A stretch of 64,000 nt of DNA from positions 1 through 64,000 of the forward strand of contig NZ_JACMYK010000024.1 of assembly GCF_020889785.1 (NCBI RefSeq), in the 5' to 3' direction. A program made the position numbers and the translations under genes. This DNA comes from Bradyrhizobium acaciae (GTDB taxonomy: Bacteria > Pseudomonadota > Alphaproteobacteria > Rhizobiales > Xanthobacteraceae). The first letter of the stretch is position 1; the number at the start of each line of letters is the position of its first letter. The notes beneath the pieces are model-generated. The model ran no database searches. It was not told where the DNA came from and saw only the letters and a program-made list of their open reading frames with translations. Shown here piece after piece: positions 56,871 to 63,531 of the stretch.

Positions 56871-57803
56871 ATGAGGAAGACACTTCTTGCCGCCGCGGTC
56901 TTCGCCATGATGGCGACGCCCGGCTTTGCCCAGAGCTATAAATTCGTGATCGTACCCAAGGCGATGAACAATCCATTCTTCGACTTCGCGCGCGACGGCT
57001 GCCAGAAGCGTGCCAAGGAGCTCGGCAACATCGAATGCATCTACAAGGGCCCCGTCGAGCACGAGCCGGCGACGCAAGCCCAGATCATCCAGGATTTCAT
57101 CACCCAGAAGGTGGACGGCCTCGCCATCTCGGTCGCCGATGTCGCGGCGATGACCAAGTCGATCGAGGCGGCCACGGCTGCCGGCATTCCTGTCATCACG
57201 TTCGACTCGGACGCGCCGGCCTCGAAGCGGATCGGCTATATCGGCACCGACAACAAGGAGTTCGGCGTCGCGCTCGGCAAGCAATTGCTGAAGCTGCGGC
57301 CCGATGGCGGCAAATACGCCATGATCTCCGGCGGTCCGGGTGCGAAAAACCTCGCCGAGCGCGTCGACGGCGTCCGTGAAGCGCTGAAGGGCTCCAAGTG
57401 GACCGAAGTCGGGGGCTCCCCGACCTTCTGCAACGACGACCCCGCGCTGGGCGTCCAGCAGATGACCGATCTGCGCACCGCGACCCCCGATCTTGCGGCG
57501 ATCGTTCCGGTCGGCGGCTGGCCGATGTTTGCCCCGGAAGGCTTCAAGGCCTTCGCGAGCAAGAGCAAGAAGGACATCGACGCCGGCAAGTTCACGCTCG
57601 TCGTCGCCGACACCCTCAAGATGCAGCTCGAGCTTCTGAACGAGGGTTACGCCAATGCGCTGATCGGCCAGCGGCCGTTCGAAATGGGCGAGAAAGCGAT
57701 GGATACGCTCCTTGCCGTCAAGAAAGGTCAGAAGGTGCCGGAGATCATCCACACCGGCCTCGACGTTGTGACAAAGGACAACGTCGCGACGATGTTGAAG
57801 TAG
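56871..57803 (+). CDS. Sugar ABC substrate-binding protein (FrcB/RbsB-like)
   Basis: A 310-residue periplasmic receptor. Signal peptide KTLLAAAVFAMMATPGFA-QS. Type I fold features: KFVIVPKAMNNPFFDFARDGC, QKVDGLAISVADVAAMTKSIEAA, TFDSDAPASKRIGYIGTDN and IVPVGGWPMFAPEGFKAF. GGAGGGAAGC directly precedes the ATG at 56871. It is last in the ATPase-permease-receptor operon. Cys residues in DGCQKR, NIECIY and TFCNDD are more than usual and could pair. Confidence 0.9.
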   Translation: MRKTLLAAAVFAMMATPGFAQSYKFVIVPKAMNNPFFDFARDGCQKRAKELGNIECIYKGPVEHEPATQAQIIQDFITQKVDGLAISVADVAAMTKSIEAATAAGIPVITFDSDAPASKRIGYIGTDNKEFGVALGKQLLKLRPDGGKYAMISGGPGAKNLAERVDGVREALKGSKWTEVGGSPTFCNDDPALGVQQMTDLRTATPDLAAIVPVGGWPMFAPEGFKAFASKSKKDIDAGKFTLVVADTLKMQLELLNEGYANALIGQRPFEMGEKAMDTLLAVKKGQKVPEIIHTGLDVVTKDNVATMLK

Positions 57804-57850
57804 GTGCGGTGCCCGATCAGGCGCCGCAGTTTCGCGGAGAAATCGCGGAT

Positions 57851-57871: not shown

Positions 57872-58115
57872 TCGTTAGCCGAGGTCCGCCACATCGCCAA
57901 ACCTGCTACCGCCCGGCTTGTCTTGGTGACGGCCCGATCCGTCGCGCCGCACCCGCGGTCCGGACGTCCCGTCAGCTGCGGTACCGCCGCTCGAACTCCT
58001 CGCGGGAAAGTTTGACGGAGGGCATGCCCTTCCGGATATTGCCGGCGCGGGGTGCGCGCCGCCAAAATATCGAAAACAACCCCATGCAAAGGAGCGGGCG
58101 GCCGGCGTTCTGCCC

Positions 58116-58145
58116 TTGACATGTGGGGCAACTCAGGGATATATT
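58116..58145 (+). promoter_or_regulatory. Orphan sigma-70 promoter
   Basis: TTGACA at 58116-58121 and TATATT at 58140-58145 with an 18-bp spacer form a near-consensus promoter. It reads into a gene-free stretch and then antisense to the Ntn-hydrolase gene ending at 58428. Confidence 0.5.
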
Positions 58146-58427
58146 TCTAGTATTCCGAAATCACGTAGACACAGCTTCGCCGCGCCAACGGGCCCGCCGG
58201 TTGCGCTTGCGCGCCATACGCCCACCGCACACATTGAAAGTACACCGACAACCCGTTCGGCAGGAGACTGTCACCTACGTCTCAGTTACGATCTGCTACC
58301 CATGTCTCCAGGCTGGACACGGGCCGCATGGTAGCGGGAGACCGAATCGTACGGTCCCCCACCCAATACGAGCCATTGTTTTCAAAGACCTACCTGGCTG
58401 CTTGACTTCAAGCGGGTGCGTGCATCC

Positions 58428-59450
58428 CTATTTCTTGTCCTTTAGGTCGAACACCGCATTAGCGCTAAAGGGCGTTTCCACGTTCAACACCGTGAACGCA
58501 AAATCACCGCCGCTCTTTGCCATTGCTCCGGCAGGCTTGCCGTGCTCATCGCGAAGGATTGTTAGGCTTTCCAGCGCGCCAAGGGGTACGTCGCTGAACC
58601 ACACCTCAACCGGCTTTCCGACCACATCAGAAGCTTTCGCACGAAATTCGGCCGGTATCCCATCAAACTCTTGCAGCTTATAGCCCTGCGCTTCTCGGAT
58701 TAGAATTAAACCACCGGGAATCTGTCGGTAGTAAATGGCCAAACCTTCGAGATTTCCAATCTCTGTAACGCTCAAACCGTAGCCACCGGCTTCCGCAGTC
58801 CCGTGAGGGACAACGGTTCCTGGCGACACTTTGTCCAAAATCGGGTCAGAGACGCTATGCATATACTGACACATGTAAACGGAGCCAGGCCCCAAAGTGT
58901 AGGTCACTGCCCATCCGCCGACATCTCGTTCGGCTCGCCGGAGAAACAAGCGAAGCATGCTGAGGGTTGATGTTGAGACCACGCTTGGCGGTTCACTTGG
59001 CGAACTCCCCGCGAACGCAAAGGCCTCGATAGACTTCGGGATGGGGTCCTCGGGGGCGTGACGAATGTTCTGGAATTGCTCGAATGCTCCCTTGTCGCCG
59101 ATATACGCGGCAGGGACCTCTAAAGCTTTACCACTCGATATTTTGTAAAGGTGAGGAACCGCCGTCTCGTCCAAATATATATAAACAAAATCAACTCCTG
59201 GATTGGCGACTTGCGCTTTGGCCAACATGCTAACAGTGTTTAAGCCGCTGGGCATAGCGGCGGCTTCTGCAATCAGCCTACCACCGCCGTGCGCGTCACC
59301 TGAGAAGGCGGCAAGAGAGCGGCGATCCTGTGCCGGAAGGCATTTTATCTGAAACTCACGCTCGCGTAGTTGAATAGTGCCACCAGTAATTAGCGTATCA
59401 GAAACAATAAACCCGATCCCTTCAACAACCCCCGCGACAACAAGCGTCAT
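58428..59450 (-). CDS. Ntn-hydrolase / proteasome-beta-like protein
   Basis: A 340-residue protein whose first 60 residues follow the proteasome beta-subunit plan. After Met removal the N terminus is TLVVAGVVEGIGFIVSDT: Thr1 as nucleophile, Asp17 at the canonical place in VSDT, and a Lys at 35 (canonical 33) in FQIKCLP, then SLAAFSGDAHGGG. No propeptide is seen, so Met excision alone would expose Thr. A C-terminal part (about 235-340) carries no known domain. It is larger than HslV or Anbu. It follows the HEPN-like gene by 72 bp. Substrate and role are unknown; base composition is AT-richer than the flanks. Confidence 0.62.
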   Translation of the reverse strand: MTLVVAGVVEGIGFIVSDTLITGGTIQLREREFQIKCLPAQDRRSLAAFSGDAHGGGRLIAEAAAMPSGLNTVSMLAKAQVANPGVDFVYIYLDETAVPHLYKISSGKALEVPAAYIGDKGAFEQFQNIRHAPEDPIPKSIEAFAFAGSSPSEPPSVVSTSTLSMLRLFLRRAERDVGGWAVTYTLGPGSVYMCQYMHSVSDPILDKVSPGTVVPHGTAEAGGYGLSVTEIGNLEGLAIYYRQIPGGLILIREAQGYKLQEFDGIPAEFRAKASDVVGKPVEVWFSDVPLGALESLTILRDEHGKPAGAMAKSGGDFAFTVLNVETPFSANAVFDLKDKK

Positions 59451-59522
59451 GCCCTACCTCGCTTTTTGGCCAGTCCGCGCGGACGCGTTCATCCGATCAG
59501 CGGAGATTCGCGTCGTCGTACC

Positions 59523-60428
59523 TCAGAATGGCTTGTTGCCCCATGCGATCAATCGCTTCACGAGACGCGGCATGCGCAGGCCCTTTTCCCTCGCCTTTCC
59601 TGGCTTGAACAGCCCGTTCTCCATAAAGAATGTTACCTCATGCTCGCCTACCTTGAAGTCTGTCTTGGGGAGAGCAACCGAATACGTCAACATTCGATAG
59701 CTGTAAGCCTTGTTGTGGATGTTGCCCTTCGGTATCGAAACAATCTCAGCATTCAACTGATCGAGATTGAACAGTGTCTCGGTCACGTTTGTCCTCCCGC
59801 TTGTCGTGAACCGATGTTGCAGGGCGGGCTCGTTGCTTTCAACGGATTTGTTGCTGGCTTCCGGATTCAGGTTACTCTGAACGAGATAGTCGAGCAGACC
59901 TTCGTGCATTACGGTTCTCGCTCGCTCCACGCATGCAGCCAGGTGCTCTTGCATAGCTTTTAGAAATTTCTGTCCGTTGGCCGAACTAAGTGAATATGAG
60001 CGCAGAGTCGCCACTATCGGCTTTGCCGCTTCTGTCGATTGTTCGATAGATACATTGAGAAGGCGCAGCGCGGGCGGCAGTTGCTCGCCATCGTCGTGCG
60101 CGATTAGTTTATTGCGAACGTCGACCAGATGACTGTGAATTTTTGGATCAAAGCGGGTGTCGAGCTTTAGGTGTCGGATAGGGTAAATCCGCTTCTCGCC
60201 GAATTTGCCATTGGACGAAAGAAATTGTCGAGCGTAGGTCACGACCGCGCTCATATAGAGTGCGCCGCGAACCTGCTCAGAAACTTCATCTTGACCGTCT
60301 GTGCCTTCGACCAAGCGGCTGACAAGAGCATACGCTGTTGAGAAATCCTCTAGCGCACGGATGTGGGCGAGCAGCTCTCGCTTTCGTGATTTGAACCAAA
60401 CAACCGTGCCGGTGTCCGCATCTGCCAT
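59523..60428 (-). CDS. Hypothetical protein with HEPN-like R-x5-H motif
   Basis: A 301-residue protein. The first 160 residues are helical (RELLAHIRALEDFSTAYALVS, AVVTYARQFLSSNGKFG) and contain DVRNKLIAHDD, with Arg105 and His111 in the R-x(4-6)-H arrangement of HEPN ribonuclease-type domains. The second half (about 195-301) is beta-richer, ending GLRMPRLVKRLIAWGNKPF. HEPN proteins often act in toxin-antitoxin or abortive-infection systems; that applies only if the motif is real. It is first of a two-gene unit with the Ntn hydrolase. TATTAT upstream could be a -10. No family recognised. Confidence 0.6.
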   Translation of the reverse strand: MADADTGTVVWFKSRKRELLAHIRALEDFSTAYALVSRLVEGTDGQDEVSEQVRGALYMSAVVTYARQFLSSNGKFGEKRIYPIRHLKLDTRFDPKIHSHLVDVRNKLIAHDDGEQLPPALRLLNVSIEQSTEAAKPIVATLRSYSLSSANGQKFLKAMQEHLAACVERARTVMHEGLLDYLVQSNLNPEASNKSVESNEPALQHRFTTSGRTNVTETLFNLDQLNAEIVSIPKGNIHNKAYSYRMLTYSVALPKTDFKVGEHEVTFFMENGLFKPGKAREKGLRMPRLVKRLIAWGNKPF

Positions 60429-60537
60429 TGGCTTTTTTCAACTTGACAACACGAGAACATAATAAGAACATCACGTCTTCACCTAGCACGGATTTGCCTT
60501 CAATGTCCACGGCAAGCGCGCCCATCCACAATCAGAC

Positions 60538-60687
60538 GTGGAGTGGCTGGAAACGGCTGCCGATCAGGCAATCGCGGCTTGCGGCGGTGACGCACGCGAA
60601 GCTGTGAAGGCGCTGTTGATTGCGAATGAGTTTCTAGAACGCGAAATGGAAGCTCGAGTGTCGCGTGGATGGGCATGCAGGCGGTAA
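60538..60687 (+). CDS. Small hypothetical ORF or fragment
   Basis: A frame open from 60487, with a GTG at 60538, encodes about 49 residues: WLETAADQAIAACGGDAREA followed by KALLIANEFLERE. The segment looks like real helical protein and resembles small unknown proteins accompanying mobile elements in rhizobia. There is no ATG or good ribosome site, so it may be a remnant. It overlaps the start of the recombinase remnant by a few codons. Confidence 0.4.
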   Translation: MEWLETAADQAIAACGGDAREAVKALLIANEFLEREMEARVSRGWACRR

Positions 60688-61659
60688 GGCGTATGGCTAC
60701 CAGACGGTACCGGGGAAACCGGGCGAACTTCAGATCGTTGCCGAGCAGGCCGACGTTATCTGCCGCATATTCAAAGAGTACGTCGACGTCGCGCCGTTCG
60801 CGATATCGCCGGACGCTTAAACCGAGACAAGATCGCGCCGCCTAGCGGGTTGCGTTGGAATGCTTCAACGATTCAAGGCAGCGCCCAACGAGGCAGCGGC
60901 ATCCTACAAAACGAAATCTATATCGGGCAGATCGTCTGGAACAAGGTCAGCATGGTCAAGGACCTGACGACCGGCAAGCGACTATCGCGCCCCAACCCAG
61001 CGTCAAAGCGCAAGCAGGTTGATGCGCCCCACCTCCGTATTGTCAGCGATGAAACCTGGGCAGCCGTGCGCGCAAAACGTCGGGCCATCGTAAAGCCGAC
61101 GATGCATCGCGTACCGCGTTTGCTCAGCGGCCTGCTCCGCTGTCCCGCCTGCGGTGGAGGCATGGGGTCTGTGGGCCTGCACCGTGGGGAGCCGCGCGTT
61201 CAGTGCTCGACATATCGCGAGAGTCGATCGTGTTCGAACAGCCGTATGGTCAACCGAAACAAGATTGAAGCGGCTGTGCTCGACGGCCTGCGGGAGGTGC
61301 TCAGGGACCCCGGTTATTGGAAGCACTATCTGAAGGTCTACAATGAGGAACGCCGCCTGCTGGCCAGCGGTGCTGTCCGTGACCGCACCAAGCTCGAAAG
61401 CCGAGTCGGACAGATCGAGCGCGAGACTGATAGGCTTGTCGACGCCATCGCTGAAGGCACCGCTCCCGCCGACGTGGTCGGACCGAAACTGCTAGCCCTA
61501 GAGGCTGAACGGCTATCGCTCGAAGAGCAACTCGCCGCTGCGGAGGATAAGGGTAAAGCGGTCGCGCTGCACCCGGCCGCGATTCGGAACAATTTGGCGA
61601 CGTTGGCGCTCAGATCGGAGGCGACGTTTTCCTATCGACGCCCAGTGAAGCTGGCTTAG
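60665..61659 (+). pseudogene. Large serine recombinase remnant
   Basis: A decayed large serine recombinase. The N-terminal catalytic resolvase domain is missing. From 60665 one frame reads VDGHAGGKAYGYQTVPGKPG and QADVICRIFKEYV before a stop at 60818. A second frame resumes with AVRDIAGRLNRDKIAPPSGL (the Recombinase domain) and runs on through NEIYIGQIVWNK, the zinc ribbon CPACGGGMG...C...C and a coiled coil (QIERETDRLVDAIAEG) to 61659. At least one frameshift lies near 60785-60800. The product cannot be active; it marks the area as a former integrated element. Confidence 0.85.
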
Positions 61660-61836
61660 CGGCGCTCCAATAATCCGCCAAATACGCAATCCAGCTGCGG
61701 TTTCGCAGGCTAGCGAACCGATTCAAATTATAAAGGCACAACCACCGATCTTGCGAATCCGAGGACGAAACGCTGCACTTCGAACCGAGTAGCGTTCGAT
61801 CTCAATGGCGAGGTAACCGCCGGCCATCCCGTCTGG

Positions 61837-63531
61837 TCATCCAGCCAAAACGGCGACCATGATCGATCCCCAGGTCGTCAGCAGAATGTTCGAGACCGGA
61901 TAGGCGGGCGTATAGCCGAGCACCACCACGGAACTCCCCGAGCGCTCCTGGATGGCGGCCATCGCGGCCGTCACCGTCTGCGCTCCCGTCAATGCTCCCA
62001 GCAAGAGGATCGGGTTCATGCGCAGCACGAAATGGCCGAAGCAGAAGCCGACGATCTGCGGCAACAGGGTGACGATCATGCCGCCCAGCAGCAGGCCGAT
62101 GCCCGACTCGCGGATCGCAGAAAGGAAGATCGGCCCAGCGTGAATGCCGGTCAGGCCGACGAAGGCAGCGAGCCCGAGCGCCGTCATCAGGCTGATGGCG
62201 CCGTCCGGGATCCGGCCGAAATACGGCAGTCGGGTGCGGAGGTAGCCGACCAGCAGTCCGGCGAGCAGCGTGCCGACGCTGGTGCTCAGAGAAATCGTGA
62301 CGCCGCCAACCGAAAAGCTCACGAGCACGCCAACGAGGCCGCCGAGGAAAATCGCAAGCCCGAGCACCACGAAATCGATGCTGGTGCTCGGCGCGACAAT
62401 GACGCCGATGCTCTTGCCAGCATTCTGCACTGCTGCTTCAGGGCCAACGATGCGAAGCAGATCCCCGCGTTCCAGGACCGTGCCGGCGGCGATCGGGATT
62501 GCTTCATCACCCCGGCTCATTGAGCGCAGATACAGGCCGCGCGACCAGCTCTGCTCCGACGCCTGCTGGAGACTGCTGCCCGCGAGCTCGGGGTTGATCA
62601 GGAACACGTCGGCCGAGATCAGGGGAATGTCGAGCAGCTCCCGGTCCTCGACCTCCTCACCGCGCGGTCCGATCAGCTCGACGATGGTCTGGCGCGGCGC
62701 GGATAGCGCGATCACGTCGCCGGCCGCGAGCGTCATCCCTGGCTCCGCCTCGAGGATGCGCTCGCCGCGGCGAATGCGGTGGATGAACACGCGTTGCTCG
62801 GGCACGCGAGCTTCGGCGGCGGCAACCGTCAGTCCGGCGATCGCCGCGCCGGCATCCAGCCGGTACGCGCGCAGCTCGAATTTGCGCCAGGCCGACGCCA
62901 GGCCGGGCTTGGCGCGCGTGATGCCCAAGGCTTGTTCCAGCTTGAGCGCTTCGGTCTTCAGATCGATCTTCAGCAGCGCCGGAACGACGATCGTGCAGAA
63001 TGTGATCACGCCGGCATAACCGAAGATGTAGCAGACCGCATCGGCCACCGCGACGTGCGAGACGAACAGCGCGCGCTGTGCTTCGGATACCGGCAGTCCG
63101 TTGATTGCGTCGGTCGCCGTACCCATCGCCGCGCTCTGGCTGAGCGCACCCGACATCAATCCGGCGGCAAAGCCGGGATCAAGCCGCAGCACCCGTGCCA
63201 CGACGATCGCCGCCGCAAGGCCGGTGAGGCTTACGACAATGGCCATCAGCACCGGCTTCAGCCCGTCGCGCTTCATCGCCAGCACGAATTGCGGACCGAC
63301 CGAATAGCCCACTCCGAACAGGAACAACAGGAACAGGAAGGATTTGGTCATGCCGGAGACCGGCACATGCGCGAAATCGCCGACCGCAAGGCCGGCAAAG
63401 AGCGCACCCGTCACCGGACCGAGGCTGAAAGCCCCGATCCTGAAGCTTCCAATCCAGTAACCCGCCGCGATCACCAGGAACAGCGCGAGCTCCGGATAAC
63501 GGACGAGAAACTGCTGCAGCCAGATCACCAT
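61837..63531 (-). CDS. AspT/YidE-family transporter
   Basis: A 564-residue inner-membrane protein, full-length for the aspartate:alanine exchanger family. Two membrane halves, each with about five helices (residues 1-180 and 370-564), flank two TrkA-C (RCK_C) domains at about 215-290 and 295-365. Family segments: FLFLLFLFGVGYSVGPQF, GLMSGALSQSAAMGTATDAI, GLAAFVGLTGIHAGPIF and LLGALTGAQTVTAAMAAI. Members swap dicarboxylates or amino acids. The next gene upstream, 15 bp away, encodes a second one, so the two may be co-transcribed. Confidence 0.9.
   Translation of the reverse strand: MVIWLQQFLVRYPELALFLVIAAGYWIGSFRIGAFSLGPVTGALFAGLAVGDFAHVPVSGMTKSFLFLLFLFGVGYSVGPQFVLAMKRDGLKPVLMAIVVSLTGLAAAIVVARVLRLDPGFAAGLMSGALSQSAAMGTATDAINGLPVSEAQRALFVSHVAVADAVCYIFGYAGVITFCTIVVPALLKIDLKTEALKLEQALGITRAKPGLASAWRKFELRAYRLDAGAAIAGLTVAAAEARVPEQRVFIHRIRRGERILEAEPGMTLAAGDVIALSAPRQTIVELIGPRGEEVEDRELLDIPLISADVFLINPELAGSSLQQASEQSWSRGLYLRSMSRGDEAIPIAAGTVLERGDLLRIVGPEAAVQNAGKSIGVIVAPSTSIDFVVLGLAIFLGGLVGVLVSFSVGGVTISLSTSVGTLLAGLLVGYLRTRLPYFGRIPDGAISLMTALGLAAFVGLTGIHAGPIFLSAIRESGIGLLLGGMIVTLLPQIVGFCFGHFVLRMNPILLLGALTGAQTVTAAMAAIQERSGSSVVVLGYTPAYPVSNILLTTWGSIMVAVLAG

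Follow-up and report, generated by a model that had tools for sequence, protein, structure and literature searches.

The window, a 64,000-nucleotide stretch of the Bradyrhizobium acaciae genome (G000), carries two adjacent genes whose products resemble a HEPN-type RNase and a proteasome-type hydrolase, which raises the question of whether the two proteins act together or are separate passengers of the DNA that carries them. Both genes lie on the minus strand, the HEPN-like gene first. P0002 (59523–60428) encodes a 301-residue HEPN-like protein, a candidate RNase, with the motif R105-N-K-L-I-A-H111; after a gap of 72 bp, P0001 (58428–59450) encodes a 340-residue predicted divergent proteasome-like Ntn hydrolase with Thr2, Asp18, Lys36 and Gly51. 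No stop interrupts the 340 codons of P0001 or the 301 of P0002, and a GAGG sequence was recognized by eye 5' of the P0001 ATG. Both genes are AT-rich, with GC fractions of 0.525 (P0002) and 0.537 (P0001) compared with 0.62–0.65 in the four flanking genes measured, and GC3 fractions of 0.60 and 0.55 compared with 0.82–0.87 in the same four. The pair, its AT-richness and an R-x5-H motif in P0002 had been reported in a first-pass annotation of this DNA and are all borne out, the positions of Arg and His (RNKLIAH) exactly.

The short gap and common strand fit co-transcription and count against the independence of the two genes. One reading is thus of a conflict module, a travelling stress or anti-phage unit in which the Ntn protein would use proteolysis or peptide transfer to restrain or release the HEPN RNase; strand, spacing, the GAGG before the Ntn ATG and the shared AT-richness are all in keeping with it. 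Its standing depends on what the two proteins are, on the DNA in which they lie and on whether they are found together elsewhere.

Numbering P0001 from Thr2 as residue 1 places Asp17, Lys35 (proteasome Lys33) and Gly50, the last at the oxyanion position, in proteasome-beta order, so that the spacing of Thr, Asp17 and Lys35 recognized in the first-pass annotation is confirmed and extended by a glycine. A methionine that precedes threonine is removed, which is expected to expose Thr2 of P0001. The same arrangement (Thr or Ser at position 2, Asp18, a lysine, and a glycine 14–15 residues past the lysine) is shared by P0001 and seven other aligned proteins including P0012, with the lysine column of the alignment placed by eye; the relative in G543 has Ser2 instead of Thr. 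A chance check used the pattern Ser/Thr at 2, Asp at 18, Lys at 33–46 and Gly 14–15 residues after that Lys on 675 ORFs of at least 150 residues from the window and the loci studied, with duplicates kept and each ORF read from its first start codon. The 15 ORFs that fitted represent six proteins, namely five of the P0001 family and the proteasome-like P0012, with no unrelated ORF among the 675; the G370 member was missed because its listed ORF starts upstream.

Relatives of P0001 are few. A profile built from P0001 and P0003 matched nine of 265 genus genomes, and in seven of these (G000, G430, G545, G543, G525, G370 and the distant G423) the match takes in the N-terminal domain, those in G430 and G545 being full length; G395 and G349 matched in the C-terminal domain only. 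At the level of the order, where a six-member profile was run on 168 genomes, there were three matches (G000, G011 and G039). Besides the window, Ntn relatives are thus encoded at eight loci (in G430, G545, G543, G525, G370, G423, G011 and G039), a count that leaves out the C-terminal-domain-only matches in G395, G349, G187, G1127 and G1129. Single-sequence searches with P0001, with E values calculated per genome, matched two of 347 and three of 296 genomes, of which one match in each was judged to be chance: that in G148 (E 7.0e-4) lies inside a frame that we take to be fumarylacetoacetase-like and that in G578 (E 2.4e-4) inside a presumably antiporter-like frame. A search of 190 genomes with P0010 matched one, recovering P0001 in the genome of the window (E 2.2e-4). 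No relatives were found in the genome contigs (searched with P0001), in plasmids (searched with P0001, P0002, P0010 and P0012), in phages (P0001 or P0003) or in viral contigs (P0001, A1, A2 and A3).

Comparison of branches of the Ntn family with hhalign gave 97.4%, 96.2% and 93.3%, and on these profiles the relatives cohere as one family. A seven-member profile reached P0012 of G357 at E 4.8e-6, with the next unrelated ORF at 0.41 and an hhalign value of 89%; this similarity is strong with all members only, sub-profiles giving 4.1%, 38.7% and 0.8%. Against Pfam Proteasome (PF00227), P0001 scored E 0.024 and 14.7 bits, below the 22.4-bit cut-off, and P0012 scored E 2.7e-4 and 21.1 bits, just under it. 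Neither NCBIfam nor PADLOC returned anything for P0001 or P0002, and sequence searches of the PDB found no proteasome. The genome of the window encodes elsewhere what we take to be HslV and an Anbu-like protein. Profiles of HslV and Anbu from the genus gave hhalign values of at most 0.4% with the P0001 family, and since the HslV–Anbu control reached only 5.6% this test excludes a close HslV or Anbu member, not kinship.

The AlphaFold model of P0001 is poor (mean pLDDT 37), with values of 58–83 in blocks of ten over residues 41–110 and of about 30 at the catalytic N-terminus. A Foldseek search with this model gave 1015 PDB matches, 19 of them at E <= 0.001 (best E 3.7e-4, probability 1.0), and the 50 listed are all proteasome subunits; among these listed matches the full-length alignments are loose (TMq 0.21–0.27, r.m.s.d. 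11–17). The better part of the model superimposed in VIA-align with Z 8.5 and an r.m.s.d. of 1.9 over 79 residues, where Z values of 7–8 are common for models without a clear match. Because fold, catalytic register and family profile agree, the assignment of P0001 as a divergent proteasome-like Ntn hydrolase is supported, and the Ntn fold expected in the first-pass annotation holds at the level that a poor model, the listed PDB matches and the seven-member profile allow. Helices at residues 53–64 and 70–82 of the low-confidence model lie where H1 and H2 would be.

Proteasome-like homologues, 22 novel subfamilies among them, are described by Fuchs, Alva and Lupas (2021; PMC8665760), who report that the genomic surroundings of these homologues do not point to a particular function. 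P0001 resembles them in having equivalents of Thr/Ser1, Asp17, Lys33 and Gly47 and a proteasome-like fold match, in its few representatives, in that no AAA+ partner was recognized beside it, and in that its two closest relatives carry an extra C-terminal domain. A C-terminal extra domain also marks their RPC subfamily, which lacks helix H2.

These closest relatives bear on whether P0001 is intact. The proteins of G430 and G545 comprise 474 and 475 residues compared with 340 in P0001, a shortfall of about 120–135 residues. The alignment of P0001 with the G430 gene continues for ten codons beyond the P0001 stop, to 58398, and a conserved end site (58329–58397) starts there; this P0001 copy thus ends at the edge of the island described below. 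It is accordingly conceivable that the locus is a dead island in decay, with one or both genes non-functional and P0001 a truncated relic at the island edge, and a broken recombinase beside the pair points the same way. However, both frames are open throughout, the Ntn core is whole and Ntn relatives of 288–290 residues likewise have no C-terminal domain. The G000–G430 Ntn gene pair has a dN/dS of about 0.09, which is merely indicative because dS is near saturation, and it too speaks against a relic. Overall, decay to non-function is considered improbable. The C-terminal domain of the full-length Ntn proteins P0003 and P0007 also matches separate open frames of 125–135 residues (L019, L020, L021 and L025).

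The assignment of P0002 follows a different line of evidence. A search with P0002 matched five of 242 genus genomes, its own included. Three relatives were kept, in G386 (E 4.5e-9), G528 (1.6e-4) and G529 (0.0026), the last because it is like G528 and retains the motif; the G383 match (E 0.006) was dropped as it has four stops inside. A scan of the genome contigs gave no relatives of P0002. Across P0002 and the three relatives R-N-K-x-x-A-H is invariant (4/4), and His98, the R-N-K and A-H elements and Asp113 are among the invariant columns. An R-x5-H motif alone is weak evidence for a HEPN domain and is here backed by this invariance. P0002 itself matched no Pfam family, its only match in PHROGs has an E value of 0.23, and its AlphaFold model (mean pLDDT 37) is uninformative, with no PDB match at E <= 0.001. 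The three relatives matched Pfam HEPN_AbiU2 (PF18734) at E 0.012–0.047, below the cut-off.

AbiU2 genes are frequent in the genus, where 11 of 60 genomes have one above the cut-off, and a profile built from 11 AbiU2 members of the genus gave E values of 1.7e-5 for P0005, 2.1e-4 for P0004, 0.0046 for P0006 and 0.043 for P0002, the best unrelated of 559 background ORFs being at 0.085. In a larger set of 1526 ORFs the P0002 frame (0.11) was outranked by a chance ORF, L098_34 (0.046); thus the HEPN call rests on the motif and the relatives. P0002 is probably a HEPN protein, nearest to AbiU2. The HEPN identity proposed in the first-pass annotation is weakly supported, by the invariance of the motif and by the AbiU2 similarity, and P0002 on its own stays short of a family match. 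The relative in G386 (L009:562–1348) is split over two frames, a probable pseudogene or sequencing error, and lies beside a gene that is presumably uvrB-like; in G430 some 2.7 kb separate the Ntn relative from a uvrB-like gene.

Members of the HEPN superfamily carry an Rx4-6H motif with a polar residue after the arginine and are predicted to be RNases (Anantharaman et al., 2013; PMC3710099). Set against that work, which contains neither 'proteasom' nor 'Ntn', P0002 agrees with AbiU2 in the spacing of its R-x5-H and in the polar Asn after Arg, as well as in a weak profile match that is clearer in its relatives. Unlike AbiU2, it has about 100 extra C-terminal residues and no Pfam hit of its own, and no Ex3[KR] acidic motif could be recognized in it by eye.

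The DNA around the pair has the features of a small mobile element. An inserted stretch (58206–61836) is flanked by two genes whose counterparts in G350 are not linked but 2.7 Mb apart. In the relatives compared, flank homology ends at 57803–57808 and at 61836–61837, and since the repeat at 58038–58205 also follows the left flank gene in G350, the insert starts to the right of this repeat. A putative attachment end at 58329–58397 consists of a core (58329–58340) resembling the tRNA-Met(CAT) 3' end and a conserved arm, GTCCCCCACCCA...TTTTCAAAGAC, the near edge of which is 30 bp beyond the Ntn stop codon. The arm is shared with the far ends of islands in G363, G365 and G370, and the core is shared with the 3' end of tRNA-Met(CAT), whose gene in G365 and G370 overlaps the end of the recombinase gene. 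Neither a tRNA nor a partner copy of the end site was found in the window, so the right edge of the island is placed by inference; Rfam gave no family over threshold at 52–64 kb. A dispersed repeat at 58246–58320, a copy of which in G367 is about 260 bp away from an ORF encoding an rve integrase core, is probably an insertion-sequence remnant outside the attachment site.

On the other side of the pair is a decayed serine recombinase (60672–61605, plus strand) with a broken frame, which retains the Zn ribbon and a portion of the Recombinase domain but has no counterpart of the N-terminal Resolvase domain of its intact relatives; the remnant next door reported in the first-pass annotation is therefore real and has lost its catalytic domain. 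Among the long matches listed from 60 genomes, its DNA is 81% identical to the gene for an intact 567-residue recombinase in G363 and about 70% identical to those of G370 and G365, and DNA matches to the recombinase gene also occur in plasmids of Bradyrhizobium among other genera. A start-region fragment of a 71-residue ORF (60451–60670, plus strand; 81% DNA match to G360) runs into the remnant, and this boundary presumably marks a deletion junction. A related recombinase and the tRNA-end repeat are common to the window island and the sister islands in G363, G365 and G370, and together these features support the interpretation of the pair as cargo of a decayed serine-recombinase island at a tRNA-Met(CAT)-type 3' end. 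We take the element to be of the kind known as serine-recombinase genomic islands at tRNA genes. It resembles these in the large serine recombinase beside a tRNA 3'-end repeat and in its variable cargo, and differs in that the window copy is decayed, is shorter than 4 kb and has its tRNA partner absent from the window.

At least three sister islands were seen, one with a complete known defence system, their cargo being sampled as chosen ORFs (six proteins from G365 and ten from G370). The G365 island, whose recombinase spans two overlapping frames, encodes ZorA, ZorB, ZorC and ZorD (type I Zorya), a HEC-06/Orf5-like protein and a type I specificity subunit; it measures about 34.6 kb, from L096:3487 to L097:18142, between the tRNA-Met(CAT) gene and an end-like repeat. 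One of the ten G370 proteins matched PADLOC, as a restriction-type methyltransferase. In G363, where no tRNA was found, the recombinase is flanked by the core repeat, and the slot between the shared end site and the intact recombinase (L095:2856–4044) holds a 138-residue protein with no match of note and a 211-residue possible HEPN protein, membrane-anchored as judged by eye, with the motif RNAIAH and sub-threshold matches to HepT-like (E 0.033) and CARF_HEPN (0.0046) families. The variable slot of the sister islands can, as judged from these genes, hold defence functions. The mobile setting of the first-pass annotation is in this way broadened to an island family with a type I Zorya copy, and the capacity of that family for defence genes would suit a conflict module.

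Conservation of the pair should distinguish a module from chance neighbours. Within the genus both genes occur in G000 only (P0002 having been searched in 242 genomes), and none of the three other genomes with P0002 relatives is among the nine of 265 that match the Ntn profile. Profiles of the P0002 family and of AbiU2, which define the scope of this test and could miss other HEPN families, detected no recognizable relative among the 682 ORFs at the other eight loci with an Ntn gene (L016, L030–L034, L110 and L111), of which those around G011 and G039 were read over 10–11 kb. Both genes together were thus found at none of the eight (0/8), including the loci in G430 and G545, whose Ntn proteins are the closest relatives. 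The sole match at E <= 1 in these loci, L111_6 (E 0.055), is a kinase-like frame by eye. P0011, which in G525 is encoded upstream of the Ntn gene, was considered as a HEPN protein on the strength of LNAQIAH seen by eye and was set aside, having no arginine in place and no Pfam HEPN or AbiU2 match. The conserved adjacency that the first-pass annotation named as a check is therefore lacking at the other Ntn loci (0/8) and in the other genomes with a P0002 relative (0/3), and its suggestion that proteolysis controls a toxin is not supported in the sample. Since the pair stands together in no other genome examined, the two genes are probably separate passengers.

Other neighbours of the Ntn genes vary. 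The gene in G370 lies about 3.8 kb from another large serine recombinase, and between them is a trypsin-like gene (Pfam Trypsin_2; PADLOC RT-Protease_XI, E 7e-6), which clusters with the proteasome-like gene and one for a 502-residue protein at L033:2343–6189. In G011 (L111:4062–5308) a DUF4160 gene follows the Ntn relative by 110 bp on the same strand; DUF4160 is linked with toxin–antitoxin systems. In G357 (L055:4608–5890) a SocA_Panacea-like gene (E 0.13, below the cut-off) overlaps the distinct P0012 by four bases, and the two possibly form a two-gene unit. That the partners differ at each locus suits mixing of cargo at least as well as a module.

The neighbours in G357 and G011, as possible toxin–antitoxin-type genes, lend the conflict module some further plausibility; against it stand the occurrence of the adjacent pair in one genome only, the closest Ntn relatives with no P0002 relative nearby and the loss of the C-terminal domain from P0001, and control of the RNase by its neighbour is on balance unlikely. 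The reading we favour, with moderate confidence, is that an AbiU2-type RNase and a solo Thr hydrolase are separate passengers on a small decayed island, joined by an accident of its assembly. On this reading, a P0002 dimer would cut RNA at the R-N-x4-H site and growth would stop when it is triggered, for example by phage. Removal of the methionine would expose Thr1 of P0001, and this residue, together with Asp17, Lys35 and the oxyanion-position Gly50, may act in peptide-bond cleavage or transfer on a small number of substrates.

A bolder proposal is that solo proteasome-like Ntn hydrolases recur in conflict modules with changing partners, the HEPN gene in the window, the SocA/Panacea-like gene in G357 and the DUF4160 gene in G011, and that the Thr hydrolase here directly controls the HEPN RNase as its antitoxin or activator. 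To our knowledge no such role has been reported for the proteasome fold, nothing relevant stood among the titles listed by literature searches, and this proposal is considered very unlikely. If it were true, the HEPN link would be a new way to control a HEPN RNase, which the present data do not show.

With regard to the proteasome-like homologues, which according to PMC8665760 have no telling contexts, the island setting of P0001 is a modest new clue. The presence of a rare, divergent proteasome-like member on an island with an anti-phage sister copy is a modest hint that some solo proteasome-like hydrolases may have a role in defence, while others adjoin possible toxin–antitoxin-type genes.
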